A stretch of 25,224 nucleotides of DNA from a virus: positions 1 to 25,224 of the IMG/VR virus record IMGVR_UViG_3300010150_000144; one strand, written 5' to 3'. The position numbers and the translations under genes were made by a program. Below the pieces are notes generated by a model. That model ran no database searches. It was given only the letters and a program-made list of their open reading frames with translations, and had not been told where the DNA came from. Positions 1 to 23,513 of this stretch are shown piece by piece. Numbering within the stretch: position 1 is the stretch's first letter; each line of letters begins with the position of its first letter.

Positions 1-420
1 GAACTTCCAATAAGGATCATAATCATCAACCTTAACCTTTGCAATTCTAGACTCATCTGTTTTAAGAGATTGATATAGATTCATTTTCTTTAATGCATCT
101 AGTATAACATGATCACGAACATTCTTTAAATCTTGTTGATGTGTAAATTCAACCATGCTCTTCATTACCTTTCTGATGTTATCACTTGGTGTTTTACCTG
201 GTACCAGAGCAAATTTATTTTCAAACTCATCTTCCTCAAGCAGCAGGCAGTGTATTAACTTACCTTCTACAAGATGCTTATCTGTTTTAATCTCTCTATC
301 TTGGAGAATATAGTCCTTATAAAATAAGGATGGGGAAAACATTAATTTGTTTAGAGAAGAGTAACTAAAGTTAAAACTATCCTTAGCGTAAAATTCTTCT
401 TCTTTTTGTTTATCAATCAT
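1..420 (-). CDS. RecE-like PD-(D/E)XK exonuclease, N-terminal part (cut by window edge)
   Basis: The ATG at 420 opens a frame that stays open for 140 codons to the left edge, so the 3' end is outside the window. The N-terminus reads FSYSSLNKLMFSPSLFYKDY, and residues 52-70 read EGKLIHCLLLEEDEFENKF. This pairing of 'S..L..L..SP..F' with 'GK..H.LLLE...F...F' is the typical start of the RecE-type/DUF3799 PD-(D/E)XK exonucleases that resect DNA ends for phage recombination. The catalytic D/ExK residues should lie in the missing part, so activity cannot be judged. The start overlaps the stop of the upstream zinc-binding gene by ATGA, which indicates coupled translation and supports this start. A likely partner is the Sak4-like ATPase and putative SSB at 8365-9730. 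Family recognition is good; substrate is inferred. Confidence 0.72.
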   Translation of the reverse strand, partial: MIDKQKEEEFYAKDSFNFSYSSLNKLMFSPSLFYKDYILQDREIKTDKHLVEGKLIHCLLLEEDEFENKFALVPGKTPSDNIRKVMKSMVEFTHQQDLKNVRDHVILDALKKMNLYQSLKTDESRIAKVKVDDYDPYWKF

Positions 421-2139: not shown

Positions 2140-2170
2140 AAAAAGGGGTGGGTGTGCTTTCACACACCCA
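2140..2170 (-). terminator. Intrinsic terminator after the 388-residue gene
   Basis: An 8-bp perfect stem (2149-2156 with 2163-2170, TGGGTGTG/CACACCCA) encloses a 6-nt loop. Read on the minus strand it is followed by CCCC and a run of five T. It lies 24 bp past the stop at 2194 and before the ATG at 2127, so it should end or attenuate the transcript carrying the MoxR/VWA block. Confidence 0.8.
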
Positions 2171-2193: not shown

Positions 2194-3360
2194 CTAAAAT
2201 GGTAAATCTAACATACCTTCTAATTGAAGTTCAGGCTTTTTAAGCAACTCCTTGTAGTTATCTTTAAGCCTTATATCACTTATTTTAAAATCAAAAGGAG
2301 ATGCTTCACCAGGAAACTGCCTGTTAATTATATTATCAAATATATCCTTAGCAACCTGCTTAAATATAAACTCATCAAGACAATCATCCTCAGCAATCTT
2401 CTTTATAAACCTTGAGTACTTATACGATCTATCGTTACTTCCATACCCATGATACTTTGATGTTGCTTTTCTTAGAGCCTTTACGCTAATATGATTCCAA
2501 TTAGATCCCATTTTTAAATGGTCAAGATAGAATTCAAATATATATGCAATAGAACCCATAGACTTAGTAAGATTGGATGCTGCCATTATTTCTAATGCAA
2601 CTGAAGTGTCATCAAGATCATCAGACTTAACCATTCCAATTAGATTTTCAAACTGAACAGCATCAATTACAATAGAATCCTCATTACATATTTCTAATAT
2701 ATCAGAATCAAGTACTAAGTTGTTAGAGCTAAAAATATCCTCAATAAGATCTTTGTCTTTAATTGCAATAAAATCATGATCTTTTAAAGTAGACAAAGAG
2801 CGGCAGCTTTTTGCATACTCAATCTTTCTTATAGCCTTATACATGATAGGGAAAGGAGTATTATACATATATGGAACATTTATACTTACCCATTTATCTT
2901 CATTAATATCATCAGCTATTTCCAACATCACAGACCAAGCTGAATCTGTAAAATAACCTCTTAATGGATTTAAATACTTCATTAAAGTGGCCTTATCATT
3001 AAATCCGTTTATTGAAGAATAAAACATATCTCCTAAACGTCTTATAGTATCAGGGCTTACTACTTTGAAATCTGCAGCAGCTTTACTTCTTGTTACTGAT
3101 ACATTATACTTCTCCTTTAAAAGATCAACCTTATTTCTTGGTAATGATAGATTTGGATACCTATAAAAAGTTTTATCCTTTATAGTAGAACCTTTTACTT
3201 TTATAACCTTATTTTTTAAATCACCATAATCTTGATGATAATTTGACGTATTAGGTATAGCAAGTATATCACTTACTTTTTTTGTTATAATATTCCGTGT
3301 TGTCACCATACTATTTATTCCTGCATTTATTTCTACAGTTGTCACCTTAAAAAATTTCAT
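2194..3360 (-). CDS. Unknown 388-residue protein with a possible BRCT-like segment
   Basis: I do not recognise the family over its whole length. Residues about 62-107 (KTFYRYPNLSLPRNKVDLLK, then EKYNVSVTRSKAAADFKVV and SPDTI) line up by eye with a segment of the next gene upstream: 'K.F.......R.K..LKE....VT....AD.....D'. The layout strand, helix with R/K, 'VT', 'AD..V' recalls a BRCT domain. The rest is charged and mixed, with no transmembrane segment or nucleotide-binding loop. The ATG at 3360 overlaps the previous stop by ATGA, so the two are coupled and probably stoichiometric. It is the last gene before a terminator, downstream of the MoxR and VWA genes. Confidence 0.65.
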   Translation of the reverse strand: MKFFKVTTVEINAGINSMVTTRNIITKKVSDILAIPNTSNYHQDYGDLKNKVIKVKGSTIKDKTFYRYPNLSLPRNKVDLLKEKYNVSVTRSKAAADFKVVSPDTIRRLGDMFYSSINGFNDKATLMKYLNPLRGYFTDSAWSVMLEIADDINEDKWVSINVPYMYNTPFPIMYKAIRKIEYAKSCRSLSTLKDHDFIAIKDKDLIEDIFSSNNLVLDSDILEICNEDSIVIDAVQFENLIGMVKSDDLDDTSVALEIMAASNLTKSMGSIAYIFEFYLDHLKMGSNWNHISVKALRKATSKYHGYGSNDRSYKYSRFIKKIAEDDCLDEFIFKQVAKDIFDNIINRQFPGEASPFDFKISDIRLKDNYKELLKKPELQLEGMLDLPF

Positions 3361-4331
3361 TTACTTAGTTTTAAATATTTTCTATATTCTTTTTTTACAT
3401 TTACTTTAAACACATATAACTCCCTATTGTGTATATTGATTTCCGCTCTGCATATTTTTTCAAGAAATCTAAAAGATTCACTTGTAAGCTCATCCCTTCT
3501 TTCAAGATCTAGTATTTTTTGTTCTGCACTCATGCAATAATTTTTATACATTTTACTTGCATCTACATAATACTTAAGATCTTTATTTCTCCCTACATTC
3601 ATTTGGCTATATATATTCTGTGAAAGCTTCCAAAACAGATGAGGGTTTGTATCATAATCAACCGTAACTATTAACTGATTAGCCATTTCTCTATCATCAT
3701 TGTTGTACGATAAATACAAATCTTCAATTTGTTTTATTATATCTAAGGTTAGGACCGTCCTGTTGCTAGAACAGTGTAATGCTCCATCAGCACTAATAGT
3801 ACTAACCTCACCTGACTCTATAAGAAATGCTAAGTTTACAGCCATTCCGGTTATAAACCTTTCATCATAGAGACTTTCCTCGTTAGGTAAATTCCAACTA
3901 GTGTAATCACAACTATCTTCCTGATATATATAGCATTCACCATTATCTTTATAAGAAGAAAAGTTGTCTAAACGAGCCATACAAAGAGTTGATTTAACCT
4001 TCTCATTGTTGCTTAATGTAGAGTAAAAATCATTATGCGTTATGATTACATCTGCTAATTCATAATCATTTGTAACAGTAATCTTATGTTCTTTTAAAGC
4101 ACTCTTAAGTCTATCCTGTGTAATAGGACAACCGGGTAGTATAAAAGCCTTTTTAAAACCACTTAGCTTCTTTACTTTAGGCTCCATAAGTATTTCTTTT
4201 ATTTTATTATATGTTGTAACATCATCTGTTACTAATACAGACCCATTGGGGAGATTGTAAGTCTCCCCTTCTAAGTCAAAATGTTTAATTGCTTCTGGAT
4301 TATAATCCTGATATACCGATTTACTTGCCAT
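3357..4331 (-). CDS. Unknown 324-residue protein with a BRCT-like segment
   Basis: Residues about 57-103 read GFKKAFILPGCPITQDRLKS, then ALKEHKITVTNDYELADVII and THNDF. A small strand with PG, a helix carrying R.K..L, 'ITVT', then 'ADVIITH' is the order of elements in BRCT domains (phosphoprotein and DNA-end binding). The remainder contains a NLPNGSVLVTDD stretch near residue 27 and a long helical C-terminus with no recognised motif. The gene begins one base after the stop of the MoxR-like ATPase gene and overlaps the next gene by 4 bp, so it belongs to that cassette. The BRCT call is from visual pattern only; a Rossmann-like domain of another kind is an alternative. Confidence 0.65.
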   Translation of the reverse strand: MASKSVYQDYNPEAIKHFDLEGETYNLPNGSVLVTDDVTTYNKIKEILMEPKVKKLSGFKKAFILPGCPITQDRLKSALKEHKITVTNDYELADVIITHNDFYSTLSNNEKVKSTLCMARLDNFSSYKDNGECYIYQEDSCDYTSWNLPNEESLYDERFITGMAVNLAFLIESGEVSTISADGALHCSSNRTVLTLDIIKQIEDLYLSYNNDDREMANQLIVTVDYDTNPHLFWKLSQNIYSQMNVGRNKDLKYYVDASKMYKNYCMSAEQKILDLERRDELTSESFRFLEKICRAEINIHNRELYVFKVNVKKEYRKYLKLSK

Positions 4332-4332
4332 A

Positions 4333-5562
4333 CTATGCCATTGTCATTTTAATTATTTCAGGCTTCATCATTAGTTTATTAAACTTAGCCTTATTACCAT
4401 TGAATATAGTTCTTACAACTAGATACTTAAGATCATTAGTAAAGTAATCCTTTGTACAAAGGGTCTCCAATCTGTCTGTGATCTTTTGGCTAATTGTGTT
4501 GTCCTTTGAATATACTACAGCAAAGTTAGAAAGTCTTGTTGCAAGTATTGATGCAATATCAGCACGATAGCTATCATCTTTACCAATACAACCTTGTAGA
4601 TCTTTTAGTACTGTATCATCCTTTGTTAGTAGATCTTTTGGAGTAACCAATTTATCTAGCTTATTATTAATAAAAGTTGTAAACATAGATGCAAACTCAT
4701 CACCCACTGAACCTTCACCAATCATTTGAATCATTGGTAGGTTATCTTCAAAGCTATCAAAGCTTGATATTGCATTAAAGAAAGTAGTAATTGATCTTGC
4801 ATTTGTTTCTTGACTTACAAGTTCTGGGTGTAATAATAAGAAGTTAATACAACGGCCATCAATACCCGCAGTCTCAGCCCAACGAGCCCATACATCAACA
4901 TCAAACTTTAGGTTAGCTGTAATGTAACGAGTCTTTTGTGCAGAGTCAATAGAGTTTACCATATAGTCTCCATTGTCAGGGTTTGCAGTTAGAATGATGT
5001 GCCAATCCTGTGGTAAAGACCAAGAGATATAAGTCTGACGGTCAACCAACTCCATAACAGCTTGAATGAATCTAACATCAGCACGATTCCAGTCATCAAG
5101 TAAAAGGATACCACCTTTCTTTTTGTCTGATATCCACTCAGGTGCACAGTAAGACATTCTATTCTTACCTGTTACTTTCCAACCTTGTCTAAGATATTCC
5201 TCAACTGCTAACTCATCAACCCACTGACCAACTTTCTTCTTAACTGCTGGAGCAGCTGCTGTTGCATAGTTTAAGTCTGAAGTTTTCTGCTTAACTTCTT
5301 TTTCTTTATATAATTGGAATTGTCTTACAGGGAAGCCAACCAAGTCACCTAGCTCCTCAATCTGAGCAAGATTTAATTTTACAAAATCAAGATCCATATC
5401 ATTAGCAATATCTTTTACTGTTGAAGTTTTACCAATACCTGACTCACCCAATACCTCAACAGATACAGGTAGTTTGCCAGACTCTTGAAGGAATCTATTG
5501 TTACTTACAATGTGGTTCATAAAACCTTTTAAATCATCAATGTTTAAATTTACTTCTGCCAT
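4333..5562 (-). CDS. MoxR-type AAA+ ATPase
   Basis: A 409-residue protein with Walker A GESGIGKT (39-46), Walker B ILLLDDWNRAD (152-162), a sensor-1 like TANPDNGDY (192-200) and an arginine in AQKTRY (208-213). These match the MoxR/dynein-related AAA+ group (AAA_5), which acts as a ring-shaped chaperone and is usually encoded beside a VWA protein. The gene for a metallopeptidase-VWA protein lies 5 bp upstream, exactly that arrangement. The Walker B carries DD rather than DE. Residues 83-125 form a charged and alanine-rich insert before QW/EEYL. Known MoxR-VWA pairs remodel or mature other proteins or insert metal; what this one acts on is not visible. Confidence 0.88.
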   Translation of the reverse strand: MAEVNLNIDDLKGFMNHIVSNNRFLQESGKLPVSVEVLGESGIGKTSTVKDIANDMDLDFVKLNLAQIEELGDLVGFPVRQFQLYKEKEVKQKTSDLNYATAAAPAVKKKVGQWVDELAVEEYLRQGWKVTGKNRMSYCAPEWISDKKKGGILLLDDWNRADVRFIQAVMELVDRQTYISWSLPQDWHIILTANPDNGDYMVNSIDSAQKTRYITANLKFDVDVWARWAETAGIDGRCINFLLLHPELVSQETNARSITTFFNAISSFDSFEDNLPMIQMIGEGSVGDEFASMFTTFINNKLDKLVTPKDLLTKDDTVLKDLQGCIGKDDSYRADIASILATRLSNFAVVYSKDNTISQKITDRLETLCTKDYFTNDLKYLVVRTIFNGNKAKFNKLMMKPEIIKMTMA

Positions 5563-5567
5563 TTTTT

Positions 5568-6719
5568 TTAGTTTAATTGTATTTTTAATCCAGGGAGATC
5601 CTCATTTACTCTAGATACACTGCTATGAACCCAAAGAGTATTCTTTGGACAGTCATCTGGCGAACAAGCTTCCCCATCTGTTAGATATATTAGCGCTGTA
5701 TAACGCCCATGTTTATTATAATGATCTACTACAGGTTGAAATGATGTACCACCTCTACCTTTAACTTCAAAATCCTTTGAAGGATTAAAGTCTTCTATAC
5801 TATTTATTCTAGTATCACATTGGACAACAGTAATTTTATGTCCTGTTTTATGCATATGATTTAACTCATTGACAAACTCTTTGAGTTCCTCATTATTTAC
5901 TGAACCTGATGTATCTATTCCAACACATATATGATTCTTAAACTTAATCTTAAGTCCGGGATTAGCAGCATATCTTTTATTATACTTTCTCCTTAACTTC
6001 TTTGTATACACTACTGATGAATTACCAGCAAATCTTCTAAGATAACTACGCCAATCAAACTTAGCAGGCTCAATATGACGAAGTCTTCTAATAAGATCAG
6101 CTAGTTCTCCCGGAACATTACCACTCTTCTTTTCAACCGCATCAGCAGTTTCTCTAACTTGATGTTCTATTTGCTTTTCAATAAGCTTCTTTTCAGCATC
6201 AGGCAAATCTTCAAAATCATCCCATGTAGTATGCTCATAAGGAGAACCTTTCATATTATCAAGTAAAGAATCAAGACTTGGGCATTGTCCGGTGCCTTTC
6301 TTTTTACTTAATTCATTATAGTAGTAATCAGTACCAGCTCTTCCCTTTAAGCTAAGTTCAGGAAAGCTATCCATAGTTATACCACCTTCAGGTAGATACT
6401 CTATATTAATATACTGATTGATCTCCAAGTCAGCGGCTATATTAAATAACTCTTTATCCGGGTACTTATCACGACTTAAAAGATGACCAAAGGATATATG
6501 CAATAACTCATGCTTTAACAAACCAATCCTATGTTTATCTGGTAAATCACTAAAAAACTCAGGATTAACAGTTAACTGTGCGTTTAATCCTTGTTTACTT
6601 ACACCTGCTGTAGGTATATCTTTACTGAAGGTTTTATTCAAACCCACTAGAAATAAACCATAAAATGGTTCAGAGAACAGCAATTTCTTACTGACTCTTG
6701 ATAACAAATCTGCAATCAT
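5568..6719 (-). CDS. DUF2201-type protein: zinc metallopeptidase-like domain plus VWA domain
   Basis: A 383-residue protein of two parts. The first has HELLHISFGH (70-79) followed by NIAADLEINQYI (93-104), the HExxH and downstream aspartate typical of the DUF2201 N-terminal metallopeptidase-like domain. The second, from about 260, has DTSGS (269-273), GRGGTSF (321-327) and LTDGE (346-350), a complete MIDAS metal site of a von Willebrand factor A domain. It is the natural partner of the MoxR-like ATPase 5 bp downstream: in this family the VWA domain serves as substrate adaptor for the AAA+ ring. The presumed catalytic residues appear intact. The start ATG shares one base with the preceding stop. 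Confidence 0.88.
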   Translation of the reverse strand: MIADLLSRVSKKLLFSEPFYGLFLVGLNKTFSKDIPTAGVSKQGLNAQLTVNPEFFSDLPDKHRIGLLKHELLHISFGHLLSRDKYPDKELFNIAADLEINQYINIEYLPEGGITMDSFPELSLKGRAGTDYYYNELSKKKGTGQCPSLDSLLDNMKGSPYEHTTWDDFEDLPDAEKKLIEKQIEHQVRETADAVEKKSGNVPGELADLIRRLRHIEPAKFDWRSYLRRFAGNSSVVYTKKLRRKYNKRYAANPGLKIKFKNHICVGIDTSGSVNNEELKEFVNELNHMHKTGHKITVVQCDTRINSIEDFNPSKDFEVKGRGGTSFQPVVDHYNKHGRYTALIYLTDGEACSPDDCPKNTLWVHSSVSRVNEDLPGLKIQLN

Positions 6720-6961
6720 TATTTATGTATTTGGTTATTAATGTATGTAACTATCTCTTGAAGATCTTCAGATATATTTGATGGGACATCTGAATCATAG
6801 AAGCAAACCTTCTCATGGTATCTTCTTGGTGCTATCTTGTATATTAAATACAAAACCTCTTTAGATAGACATAGATTTTCTATATTGGAAAAGGCAACAT
6901 TAAAGTCTTCTTCTTCTCCACAAAGCATTTGATGTATGGACTTAAATTCATCTAAGGACAT
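6719..6961 (-). CDS. Hypothetical 80-residue protein
   Basis: Not recognised. An acidic N-terminal half (CGEEEDFNVAFSNIENLCLS) is followed by LYLIYKIAPRRYHEKVCFYD and a helical end. It is tightly packed between the RusA gene (no gap) and the VWA gene (1-bp overlap), so it is probably translated with them. No motif suggests a function. Confidence 0.6.
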   Translation of the reverse strand: MSLDEFKSIHQMLCGEEEDFNVAFSNIENLCLSKEVLYLIYKIAPRRYHEKVCFYDSDVPSNISEDLQEIVTYINNQIHK

Positions 6962-7330
6962 TTATCTTTTTAAGATTTCAATTATTACTCCAGGTTTTTC
7001 CTTGTCATATTGATAGGGTTTGAAAACAGGAATTATATGTTCCATGTTATCATCCTCAATCCAACCATTCTTAACCATGTCATCCTGTACAGTTTGTGCA
7101 GGATTTATATAATCAAATTTATGTTTTGTTCCGCGTATAAATGTGAAGGCTACTTTCACAGGTAGTTTATGCTTCTTTGCCTTTTTTCTAAACTCAGATG
7201 CATATTTCTTATAGTAGGATGTAGTGTCCTTTCTATATTTCATAACTGTTTTACTAGCTATGAAGTACTTGCCTGTCCAACGTCTTCCATTTTTACTTGA
7301 AGGCACATTGCCTGGTATAAACCATTTCAT
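6962..7330 (-). CDS. RusA-family Holliday junction resolvase
   Basis: A 122-residue protein, the usual RusA length. It starts with a strand and IPGNVPSSKNGRRW (5-18), like the 'i.g.p.skn..r' opening of RusA. Residues 72-95 contain FDYINPAQTVQDDMV and KNGWIEDDN, matching the 'D..N..K...D.l...G.i.DD' metal-binding pattern; D73, D83/D84 and D93/D94 are the candidate catalytic acids. It would cut four-way junctions left by recombination and replication before packaging. It begins one base after the stop of the primase-side gene and leads into the VWA/MoxR genes. Confidence 0.85.
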   Translation of the reverse strand: MKWFIPGNVPSSKNGRRWTGKYFIASKTVMKYRKDTTSYYKKYASEFRKKAKKHKLPVKVAFTFIRGTKHKFDYINPAQTVQDDMVKNGWIEDDNMEHIIPVFKPYQYDKEKPGVIIEILKR

Positions 7331-7331
7331 A

Positions 7332-8297
7332 TTATTTATGTATAGTCTTTTTTAACAGAGGTGAGAGAATAGAATGGACATAGTGAACACCATGATTCTT
7401 AACAGAGTCTGATATGTCTTTGTCTTTGTCTAAACATAAGCCGTCTAAACCATATATTGATTTATACTTTTCTATTGCCTTCTCTCCCGCCTCATCATTA
7501 TCAAAGAGGGTTATTATTTTTTTGTACTTAACTTTTAAGTTTTCAATTATGTGTGGTTTTATTAATGTATTCTCACTGTCTGGAGCTATTACTTCTAGAT
7601 TATATCCAAATGACTTTAGGCACATTGCATCTTTTAATGATGAGCATACAACTAAATAAGGTTGATCATATTTTAATTGGTCAAGACCTTGGGTGTATGA
7701 GTCTACCTTATGGAACTTATGCTTCTTTTTATAGGGTTGGTATATCTTATACACATCGCCACTTTTTGCATAATATCCATATATATACTTGGCTTCTATC
7801 TTGATGGACTCATTGCCTTTAGTCATATTATAAAACTCAATGGGTCTTACATTATACTCATTAAGTATACTGCTACCTATATTATACTGTAACCAATAAC
7901 TTGCATCATCTTGATTCCACTCACGATTAGATATAAATCCTATTTGCCATTTACTTTCAACCTTAAACGAGACCTTTGCAGATCCATTTACTTTTGTATA
8001 AGTATTGTAGTCATTTATAATCTTCTCTACAGCAGCTCCGTATGATATATTAAATATATCACATACCAATGTTACCTTATCACCACCTTTTCCTGTAGAA
8101 AAATCTTTATACATATAGCACATCTTGGACTTATCTACATAGAGACAAAAGCTTGGAGTTCTTTCTGAAGGATTCCATACGGACTTTATTTTAATATCTT
8201 GTCCTGTAAGCTCTTCATTAAGTTTCAGATAGTATCTGAATACCCAGTAACTAGGTATATCTTTCTCACTTGTAACTAGATTTTTTGTATTGAGCAT
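7332..8297 (-). CDS. DnaG/T7-type primase with Toprim domain
   Basis: A 321-residue protein. Residues 46-73 (RTPSFCLYVDKSKMCY, then YKDFSTGKGGD) match the CHC2 zinc-domain region 'PSf.......w.kdf..g.GGD' but lack the four zinc ligands. A Toprim domain follows, with ITLFDNDEAG (262-271) supplying the DxD motif and KDISDS (293-298) the end. The segment YLVVCSSLKDAMCL (214-227) is where Toprim enzymes carry the conserved Glu ('vEG..Da..l'); here Ser-Ser stands in its place. It should make RNA primers for the DnaB-type helicase encoded further upstream. A terminator lies just before its ATG, so it may need its own promoter or read-through. Confidence 0.82.
   Translation of the reverse strand: MLNTKNLVTSEKDIPSYWVFRYYLKLNEELTGQDIKIKSVWNPSERTPSFCLYVDKSKMCYMYKDFSTGKGGDKVTLVCDIFNISYGAAVEKIINDYNTYTKVNGSAKVSFKVESKWQIGFISNREWNQDDASYWLQYNIGSSILNEYNVRPIEFYNMTKGNESIKIEAKYIYGYYAKSGDVYKIYQPYKKKHKFHKVDSYTQGLDQLKYDQPYLVVCSSLKDAMCLKSFGYNLEVIAPDSENTLIKPHIIENLKVKYKKIITLFDNDEAGEKAIEKYKSIYGLDGLCLDKDKDISDSVKNHGVHYVHSILSPLLKKTIHK
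7376..7388. repeat. Copy of a dispersed motif GGACATAGTGAAC
   Basis: One of three copies (the others at 15628-15640 and 25214-25224). This one lies inside the end of the primase gene, where it codes HYVH on the minus strand. Thirteen bases match the 15628 copy exactly. Confidence 0.55.
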
Positions 8298-8310: not shown

Positions 8311-8350
8311 AAAAAAGATGAGGCAGGGTAAGCTTTGTACCACCCTGCCT
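8311..8350 (-). terminator. Intrinsic terminator after the putative SSB gene
   Basis: A 9-bp perfect stem (8321-8329 with 8342-8350, AGGCAGGGT/ACCCTGCCT) with a 12-nt loop. On the minus strand it is followed by CATC and six T. It lies 15 bp past the stop at 8365 and ends before the primase ATG at 8297. Confidence 0.85.
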
Positions 8351-12442: not shown

Positions 12443-13156
12443 TTACCAATTAATTTTGTCATTAAATTCTAGTGAATCATTGATTTTTTTAAAGATGTCC
12501 TTAGAGTCCCACTTACCACCTTTATATGCAGCACTTGCAGGATGAGCAACCTTATATATGTTTTGCTTATCTAAGCGTAGCTCCCATTCTTCAGCCTTCT
12601 TACCAAGTAATACAACAGGTATATCTTTAAACTCACGGTTTATAGATTGAAGTATATGATGTGTGAATGGCTTCCATAAATCATAATGACTACCTATCTT
12701 ATTAATCTGTACAGTAAATGCTGTATTAAGCATAAGAATTCCTTGGTTACTCCATCTCTTTAAATCTAATGGATCATATAATAAATCATTAGTTCTAAAG
12801 TGTGTGTATTGTCTTTCTAATTCACTGAATATATATCTTAAAGATGGTTGAGGCTTATCATTATTAGAACAACTAAATGCTATACCATCCGCAACATTTA
12901 TTTGAGGATAAGGATCCTGACCTACAAATATTACTTTTAGTTTATCATATGGGCATTCTTCAAATGCTCTAAATAAATACTTAAGCTTTGGTGTAAATCT
13001 ACGCCCATCTTCAGCTTCAGTTTTAAGTTTGTATATTAATTTATGAAAGCCTTCTGACTTTATCATTGGTGAAAATACATCACCCCAGCCTGTATCAACT
13101 AGTTTAACAAGCATTTTTTCTTGTATATCAGTTATGTTAATATCTATTTTATTCAT
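12443..13156 (-). CDS. ung: Family 1 uracil-DNA glycosylase
   Basis: A 237-residue protein with the normal length and motif order of UNG: VIFVGQDPYPQ (75-85) supplying the catalytic Asp (D81), GIAFSC (91-96), LMLNTAFTV (141-149) including the uracil-reading Asn, and VAHPASAAY (203-211) with the catalytic His. The usual GQDPYH is GQDPYP here, and the loop after HP is ASAAY rather than SPLS. It removes uracil from DNA and starts base excision repair. It is the first minus-strand gene after the lone plus-strand gene, whose ATG lies only 21 bp away on the other strand. Confidence 0.93.
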   Translation of the reverse strand: MNKIDINITDIQEKMLVKLVDTGWGDVFSPMIKSEGFHKLIYKLKTEAEDGRRFTPKLKYLFRAFEECPYDKLKVIFVGQDPYPQINVADGIAFSCSNNDKPQPSLRYIFSELERQYTHFRTNDLLYDPLDLKRWSNQGILMLNTAFTVQINKIGSHYDLWKPFTHHILQSINREFKDIPVVLLGKKAEEWELRLDKQNIYKVAHPASAAYKGGKWDSKDIFKKINDSLEFNDKINW

Positions 13157-21707: not shown

Positions 21708-23513
21708 TTATGATAATACCTCAAATAAATTCTTAGCATTATCAACAGTAGTTCCGTTATCATTACGGTCTAACATTGTGAATGTTCTCATGTGATCTAT
21801 TTCACCTCTCATCAAGCTAGAGTTATACCTAGATGGTATACGTTTCTTACTTGTCTCTCTACCTGAGAAGTAAAACTCATCCCCATCTATATATCCCAAT
21901 GTTATCTCACCATTCAATCTCATCTCAGACATAAAGAGAATCTCTCCTTTTTCTTTGGTGTTGATGATTTTATGAGTATGAGAAACGGGATCCTGTGTAT
22001 CTACGTCACCATTCTTTGCAATAAAGAATGTAAACTTAGCATTAGGTTTACATGAATAAGGTGTAACAATAATTCTACCCTTACCTATATGCTTATCAAG
22101 TGATATCATTTCAGTAGCTTCAGGATCAGCAGACGTCATATCACCAGTATGAGTTATACCCTGTGCAACTTGATCAGTATTCCAAGACACTTGGAATCCA
22201 TCACCGTTTATTGATAAGTCTAGATCTTGACCACATTCTTCATCCGTCCAATGTATACCTATCTGTATGTTATTATACTTTCCAAAGTCAATACTTGTAC
22301 CATAAGGTACGCTACCAACACAGTCCTTTAAACTAGTTGGTATAGTAAGATTCAGATTAGTTTTAACACCATTAGGTAGCTTAAAGTAATCCAGTCTATA
22401 ATGAAGTTCATTCGTAAGAATATTTCTTACCTGATTATACAAATGATTCAGATCTATATTATTATACTCTCTTATCTGCTCATCATTTGCCTTAATAAAC
22501 TGCTTACCATTTCTAATATTGTATACATCTATAGTAAAGTTTGTTGTTGCATTTATACGCTTTTTTGCAGCGCGTATGTACTTCTCCAATTGAAATACAG
22601 TTGCACCTCTACCAATTCTATCAACAATATTAAAATATGCAGTATCACCACTCTCCTTATGAGTATCAGCTATAAACTTACGTGTAAGGAATATAGTTTC
22701 AATAGGAGCAACAAATGGTGCGTGATATCTCTTAGATAGTTTAGATAAACGGTTTACATAACTAATCATTCTACCATCAGACTTCTTCATAGCAAGAAAC
22801 AATGGCTTGTATCTATTAAATACTTTAGCCATGTATATCATGTCAAGTTTGTTTAACAAGCCTTTAACCTTTGAGAAGTGAGAATTAACATTAAGTTTAT
22901 ATAAAGCAATAGTATCTTGGTTCTTTATAATAGTTGAGTTACCAGTAACTATATAGTTAATCATACGCATTGCTTCATCATTAGTTCTAGGCGTTTCATT
23001 ATTGTGTAATGCAATTCTTATAGCCATCTCCCTGTTTGCACACATACTTGTATGTAAAGGGAAATCTAACTCATCAACTAATTCCATAGCATCATTCATA
23101 TCATCAGCAGATAGTGCAATGTTACCATAGATAAGTTTCTCTAGCTTATCTCTAAGTTCTTCCTTAGTAATAGCATCAATGAATCTCTCACCACTGTATG
23201 TAATATTACACAAGCCTTGTGATGGCAAATACATTTCTTCTGTATGATTTGTACCATATGTACTAGCATAATGTGCTAGCTGTTCTATGTATAGTACACA
23301 ATTAGGTGTATTACGAACAGCTTCAAAGTCTTTATGAAATGTAACAAACTTAGAAGGTATTGTCATTAAGTACGCTGCTATTCTTCTTGTGTCTGCTTTA
23401 GGAGATAACACTAATTGATAATCTACAAATGCTTTTTTATATAGCCTTCTGTCTACACAATTAGCTGTTGAATCTCCTTGTAATACTTTGTTAAATAATT
23501 TAATCTCTTTCAC
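21708..23513 (-). CDS. Large protein with TerD-like C-terminal domain
   Basis: A 601-residue protein, the largest in the window, starting at a GTG at 23513 (next internal Met is residue 50). Residues from about 395 to 580 resemble TerD: IGIHWTDEECGQDLDLSING (418-437), THTGDMTSADPEATEMISLD (454-473), then a strand pair ending GEITLGYIDGDEFYFSG. The DLDLS and HTGD motifs are the calcium-binding landmarks of TerD. The N-terminal two-thirds are helical (for example CVLYIEQLAHYASTYGTNH, 72-90) and match a helical region I associate with large TerD-like proteins. Ter proteins occur with MoxR ATPases and VWA proteins in stress and defence modules, and such a pair is encoded 15 kb away. It is preceded by a structured leader and followed by a terminator, so it is an independent unit. 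The TerD call is by motif, not by search. Confidence 0.72.
   Translation of the reverse strand: MKEIKLFNKVLQGDSTANCVDRRLYKKAFVDYQLVLSPKADTRRIAAYLMTIPSKFVTFHKDFEAVRNTPNCVLYIEQLAHYASTYGTNHTEEMYLPSQGLCNITYSGERFIDAITKEELRDKLEKLIYGNIALSADDMNDAMELVDELDFPLHTSMCANREMAIRIALHNNETPRTNDEAMRMINYIVTGNSTIIKNQDTIALYKLNVNSHFSKVKGLLNKLDMIYMAKVFNRYKPLFLAMKKSDGRMISYVNRLSKLSKRYHAPFVAPIETIFLTRKFIADTHKESGDTAYFNIVDRIGRGATVFQLEKYIRAAKKRINATTNFTIDVYNIRNGKQFIKANDEQIREYNNIDLNHLYNQVRNILTNELHYRLDYFKLPNGVKTNLNLTIPTSLKDCVGSVPYGTSIDFGKYNNIQIGIHWTDEECGQDLDLSINGDGFQVSWNTDQVAQGITHTGDMTSADPEATEMISLDKHIGKGRIIVTPYSCKPNAKFTFFIAKNGDVDTQDPVSHTHKIINTKEKGEILFMSEMRLNGEITLGYIDGDEFYFSGRETSKKRIPSRYNSSLMRGEIDHMRTFTMLDRNDNGTTVDNAKNLFEVLS

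Follow-up and report, generated by a model that had tools for sequence, protein, structure and literature searches.

Phages are already known to encode a MoxR-type AAA+ ATPase together with a VWA protein: homologs of both are found in the group 2.2 jumbo phages and in N4-like phages (gp24/gp25; phrog_1297/phrog_1314). Elsewhere, MoxR-VWA pairs such as RavA-ViaA remodel or assemble specific complexes. The BRCT module is best known from DNA-repair proteins; in bacteria and phages it is, to our knowledge, mostly confined to the NAD-dependent DNA ligase. Here we describe a phage MoxR-VWA pair whose partners are predicted to be BRCT-like and HEAT-like.

The locus lies in a 25,224-base stretch from a virus record (the window; Table 1). 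As in RavA-ViaA and other MoxR-VWA pairs, a gene for a MoxR AAA+ ATPase sits beside a gene for a VWA protein, and the Walker and MIDAS motifs are intact. Unlike RavA-ViaA, the VWA protein carries a metallopeptidase-like domain, and the operon adds two BRCT-like/HEAT-like proteins (A and B) and a small helical protein (C). The MoxR protein of the window has a Walker A motif (GESGIGKT) and the sequence LLLDDWNRAD, and both Walker A and DDxxR are present in 100/100 relatives. The adjacent VWA protein has HELLH and the MIDAS motif DTSGS; among its relatives, HExxH is conserved in 100/100 and DxSxS in 99/100. PHROGs (phrog_1314) and many records from N4-like phages name this VWA/metallopeptidase family “HNH endonuclease.” Neither the Pfam match to DUF2201 nor the conserved HExxH and DxSxS supports that label.

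Table 1. Features of the window, with the domains of A and B.
Feature	Position	Strand	Evidence and remarks
Window	25,224 bases		virus record
Terminator-like hairpin, directly after gene A	2149..2170	(-)	
Gene A	2194..3360	(-)	388 aa; ORF; AF2 pLDDT 87.5; family of 59
A residues 229-375, helical HEAT/ARM-like domain	2236..2676	(-)	AF2; matches AP-2, importin, CAND1
A residues 57-228, BRCT-like domain with β3 and β4 separated by an insert	2677..3192	(-)	VIA-align structural matches
A residues 59-109, segment common to B	3034..3186	(-)	hhalign N-N P=1.2e-5, 51 ungapped columns
Gene B	3357..4331	(-)	324 aa; ORF; AF2 pLDDT 90.3; family of 79
B residues 192-320, helical HEAT-like domain	3372..3758	(-)	AF2; importin-beta, neurofibromin matches Z ~5
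B residues 55-191, BRCT-like domain	3759..4169	(-)	VIA-align structural matches
B residues 57-107, segment common to A	4011..4163	(-)	hhalign; window 61-100 best conserved
MoxR-type AAA+ ATPase	4333..5562	(-)	409 aa; phrog_1297 E 4e-35; Pfam AAA
VWA protein with N-terminal metallopeptidase-like domain	5568..6719	(-)	383 aa; Pfam DUF2201 4.5e-18, DUF2201_N 3e-16
Gene C, small protein	6719..6961	(-)	80 aa; helical module as in A (and B) C-terminus
RusA-like gene	6962-7330	(-)	by inspection; order kept in relatives
DNA primase	7332-8297	(-)	phrog_12622 E 2.5e-23; order kept in relatives
Terminator-like hairpin, before primase gene	8321..8350	(-)	

On the minus strand, the order of transcription is primase, RusA-like gene, C, VWA, MoxR, B, and A. 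Because terminator-like hairpins lie before the primase gene and after A, all seven may be transcribed as a single unit. B starts one base past the stop of MoxR, and A and B overlap by 4 bp (ATGA); the overlap and the position of the pair behind the MoxR gene are just as the earlier note had described them. The neighbors of the operon include genes for primase, RusA, exonuclease, and DNA polymerase. A uracil-DNA glycosylase-like protein (12443-13156; by inspection) is encoded within the same replication block. At 1143-1976, the window encodes a protein with a Pfam match to spore photoproduct lyase (E = 5e-16), and relatives repeatedly carry such a gene close to this operon, one clade having it immediately before VWA. 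The 601-aa protein at 21708-23513 has no significant match in Pfam or PHROGs.

In the relatives, the conserved gene order is primase-RusA-VWA-MoxR-B-A-PDDEXK. Among loci that were collected via A or B, VWA-MoxR-B is nearly invariant, and A comes next in most of them. To avoid circularity, we also scanned for loci using MoxR alone as the seed, which gave 76 loci with enough sequence. B is directly after MoxR in 75/76 of these, and the single exception has a partial B about 240 bp away. VWA is directly before MoxR in 70/75 loci, and A follows B in 42/62. The tandem pair behind MoxR-VWA, which had been noticed in this one sequence, is thus an arrangement that is conserved across many contigs. Given this near-obligate adjacency, B is probably a core component of the MoxR-VWA system in these phages, with A as a diverged duplicate and C as a related small part. 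In a clade that lacks A, a gene that resembles a 5'-3' exonuclease (by eye) takes its place after B (L079:7191-7964). Two other loci have frameshifts in B and VWA (L132:4886-5827 and L164:2301-5828) that break up the genes and are probably assembly errors.

The components of the operon diverge at different rates. The median pairwise identity is 0.84 for MoxR, 0.74 for VWA, 0.49 for B, 0.30 for A, and 0.24 for C, or in other words, a conserved engine has fast-changing partners. The C family (84 members, with the window's own C of 80 aa not among them) aligns with the start of the helical domain of A (hhalign, P=4e-6) and, in B, with the corresponding position (P=1e-3), while controls gave P of at least 0.1. 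The window's C is syntenic with this family and carries the motif DEFKSIHQMLCGEEEDFNVAFSNIENL. Since C matches the helical domains of both A and B, three proteins around MoxR-VWA share one helical module.

The relatives are aquatic crAss-like phages of about 115 kb. The evidence for this comes from a 116.9-kb relative (G002) rather than from the window: G002 encodes a crAss-type capsid (PF23898, E = 2e-32; phrog_11589) and a portal protein that matches crAss-like records, and so resembles Crassvirales in both. In this relative, the MoxR operon lies within the replication block and shares one strand with DnaB, primase, and DNA polymerase, while the capsid, the portal, and most of the large structural genes are on the opposite strand. 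The structural-gene region of the crAss-like relative contains an open frame of 4701 aa (L182:4258-18360). Unlike this phage, nine known crAss-like or related genomes had no match to MoxR, B, or the VWA-peptidase (PF13203), an absence of limited weight. A collection of genomes gave three matches, all to phage contigs inside MAGs, so these do not identify a reliable host. Two different relatives (L177 and L178) were binned in one Campylobacteraceae MAG, and the link to this host is uncertain.

The earlier note had proposed that A and B share a short BRCT-like segment with residues in the same order. We found this order in both proteins (residues 63-104 of A, KTFYRYPNLSLPRNKVDLLKEKYNVSVTRSKAAADFKVVSPD; residues 61-101 of B, KAFILPGCPITQDRLKSALKEHKITVTNDYELADVIITHND), with spacings that hold approximately, to within shifts of one residue. 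Compared as single sequences, A and B are not significantly similar (the best BLASTP match has E = 2.9 and is outside the motif segment). Neither protein has a match in Pfam or PHROGs, and tblastn against phage records gave no real match for either. Relatives of B (34-48% identity) and of A (20-31% identity) are present in many IMG/VR contigs, however, so we compared the two families, using 59 members for A and 79 members for B, all from other contigs. With hhalign, the full-length families align over about 270 collinear columns (P=3e-5), while pairing A or B with each of eight further families from the locus, for 16 controls in all, gave P of 0.037 or worse. The N-terminal segments align over 51 columns without gaps (P=1.2e-5), with a score of 30.3; none of 60 column shuffles scored above 13.3. 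The C-terminal halves also align independently (P=1.9e-4; score of 33.3 versus at most 20.0 for shuffles). All-against-all BLASTP between the families gave 2619 matches at E ≤ 10, as compared to about 500 if the B sequences were reversed or shuffled, and the best match (E = 3e-5) joins residues 57-338 of A with residues 67-335 of B. In each family, conservation over 40 residues peaks in the motif segment (66-105 in A, 61-100 in B).

The mutual similarity that had been suggested is therefore significant, and the segment is real, but the similarity is not limited to it: it extends over most of both proteins, including the HEAT-like part. Since the N-terminal and C-terminal halves are each significant alone, A and B are, by sequence comparison, diverged copies of one ancestral gene and paralogous over most of their length. 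The best explanation for the pair is an ancient tandem duplication, with A as the more diverged copy.

We also examined AlphaFold2 models of both proteins (mean pLDDT of 90.3 for B and 87.5 for A). The model of A has an N-terminal beta region, a BRCT-like domain with a large insertion, and C-terminal HEAT-like helices; the model of B has a BRCT-like domain with a beta insert, followed by C-terminal HEAT-like helices. Although the two proteins were modeled separately, their elements come in the same order, both in the core segment and along the C-terminal helices. Of the complete BRCT series β1-α1-β2-β3-α2-β4-α3, strands β1, β3, and β4 and helices α1 and α3 can be assigned in both models, and β2 is a two-residue bridge. 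Helix α2 is not clear in the model of B, which has a beta-rich insert at this place.

BRCT domains are the top alpha/beta matches for both proteins. The earlier note had suggested models of the segments; here the models were of whole proteins. For residues 57-228 of A, structural matches from VIA-align include the BRCT domains of PARP1 (Z = 7.0, over 78 residues at 2.9 Å), REV1 (6.5), Sir4 (6.0), XRCC1 (5.8), and BRCA1 (5.6), as well as Rad4, MCPH1, and TopBP1, with Z ranging from 4.4 to 7.0 overall. For residues 55-191 of B, the matches are the N-terminal module of SMARCC1 (Z = 7.8, at 5.8 Å), MCPH1 (6.8, over 68 residues at 3.0 Å), BRCA1 (5.8), PARP1 (5.6), Sir4 (5.4), and RFC1 (4.7). Foldseek searches of the PDB with the models of A and B gave no significant E-values. 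Among predicted viral structures, four match B strongly: one belongs to a crAss-like virus, one to an uncultured Caudovirales phage, and two to the single genome of Podoviridae sp. ctz6O13. These model-based matches suggest that a similar pair is also present in distant viral relatives, with little sequence identity left.

The BRCT family in Pfam (PF00533), which had been put forward as a check, matches 10/79 members of the B family weakly (best E = 0.017), and the scores shown (12.6-14.3 bits) do not reach the gathering cut-off of 21.3 bits. In the four B members that we inspected, the match is at residues ~66-121, on the motif segment. BRCT is not among the top Pfam families for members of the A family. 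A profile of the LigA BRCT domain, built from 30 bacterial loci, aligns in register, with marginal significance, to the joint A+B motif (P=0.012) and to B (P=0.037), and gave nothing with A alone. Searches of PDB sequences with profiles for A, B, and the joint motif did not find any BRCT domains. Short, weak, single-helix matches to the Pfam families DED, Ish1, and FliC are not supported by either model, and we consider them to be due to chance. Each of the three checks named in the earlier note was made in some form, and its BRCT-like reading was refuted by none of them.

A serine or threonine followed by glycine at the end of β1 is a feature of phosphate-binding BRCT domains. This S/T-G pair is not conserved in the A or B families: at this place, B has an invariant A-F-(I/V)-L-P and A has Y-R-(Y/F)-P. 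Some basic residues are strongly conserved (R67, R75, K77, and R91 in A; R74 and K76 in B). In other proteins, the phosphate pocket of the BRCT domain is used for phosphopeptides, poly(ADP-ribose), or DNA ends (PMC6334254). Overall, A and B resemble LigA, PARP1, XRCC1, MCPH1, BRCA1, and RFC1 in their predicted fold and in the position of the conserved core segment, and they differ from these BRCT proteins in scoring below the Pfam cut-off, in lacking the conserved S/T-G pair, in having long inserts, and in being fused to a HEAT-like domain.

We did not find a homolog of A or B beside MoxR-VWA in six phage neighborhoods (Moorella, Pollock, AD45-P1, PBS1, MinM2, and VBP47), and neither these neighborhoods nor the literature we examined contained BRCT-like/HEAT-like partners of a phage MoxR-VWA pair. 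A match between gene 215 of PBS1 and the C-terminus of B (P=0.0016) was one of many comparisons, so we did not count it. In the open-access literature, we found no text that connects either MoxR or BRCT proteins of phages to the crAss-like group.

What might A and B do? Paralogy, predicted folds, and a near-obligate gene order were computed; from these we infer docking, a target, and an adaptor role. The MoxR hexamer would carry out ATP-driven remodeling, and the VWA/metallopeptidase protein would be its co-factor, with a MIDAS site that could bind an acidic ligand on partner proteins. B, along with A as its more diverged copy, would dock on MoxR/VWA via the helical domain, and C might join in this docking. 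The BRCT-like domains would then hold the target, which would most likely be a protein or a DNA-protein complex that takes part in replication or recombination of the phage. We propose such a target because the operon lies among the genes for primase, RusA, exonuclease, and DNA polymerase. We are highly confident that A and B are partners of MoxR-VWA. Whether they would be adaptors or clients of the ATPase we treat as equal options. That their target lies in phage replication is a tentative suggestion.

One alternative is that the alpha/beta domain is a generic Rossmann-like fold or another three-layer fold; A and B would still be paralogs and partners of MoxR. Neither protein reaches the Pfam cut-off, so the BRCT fold is assigned on the strength of the predicted models, and the call is not final because all of the structural Z-scores are below 8, a range in which common arrangements can score as well. 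The missing S/T-G pocket and the marginal match to the LigA profile also fit with another fold. On the other hand, BRCT domains match the model of B with Z of 4.7-7.8, as compared to 3.8 or less for other alpha/beta folds, and for residues 57-228 of A, no other fold is among the best 50 matches listed. Also, the matches span many unrelated BRCT families, and the LigA alignment, marginal as it is, is in register. We therefore consider a generic fold to be quite improbable, and we have good confidence in the joint claim that A and B are paralogous and BRCT-like in fold.

Another alternative is that MoxR, the VWA protein with its peptidase domain, and A/B form a chaperone for virion assembly, which would assemble or process structural proteins. 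A role in virion assembly was proposed for the MoxR-vWA-peptidase pairs of jumbo phages (PMC7824862), whose VWA/peptidase family is the same as here, with its fully conserved HExxH, and a similar role in the tails of Acidianus two-tailed virus has been reported. However, the genes belong to a replication run that also includes primase and RusA and is flanked by terminator-like sites; the operon is on the strand opposite most of the structural genes in a relative; and BRCT-like partners are more often tied to DNA metabolism. These points make a virion-assembly role rather unlikely in our judgment. A and B could also be host-takeover or anti-defense proteins, with the MoxR machine loading them onto targets in the host. 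A and C have diverged fast compared with MoxR, which would fit with this, but a strict synteny with the core genes of replication, together with the near-universal presence of B, is atypical of accessory anti-defense genes, and we give this idea very little credence. As a whole, we lean somewhat towards A and B serving the neighboring MoxR-VWA machine as its dedicated adaptors or clients, with a link to replication. The narrower proposal of a MoxR-VWA-peptidase remodeler that has its own duplicated BRCT/HEAT adaptors and acts on replication or repair complexes is more speculative.

If A and B are indeed adaptors or clients of the MoxR-VWA machine, then phage MoxR systems would gain named partners to test. 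The pair would also be a case of a repair-type scaffold domain that was recruited and duplicated in a virus. Under the narrower proposal, a MoxR machine would for the first time have adaptors of the BRCT type, and a repair-style scaffold module would have arisen within crAss-like phages.
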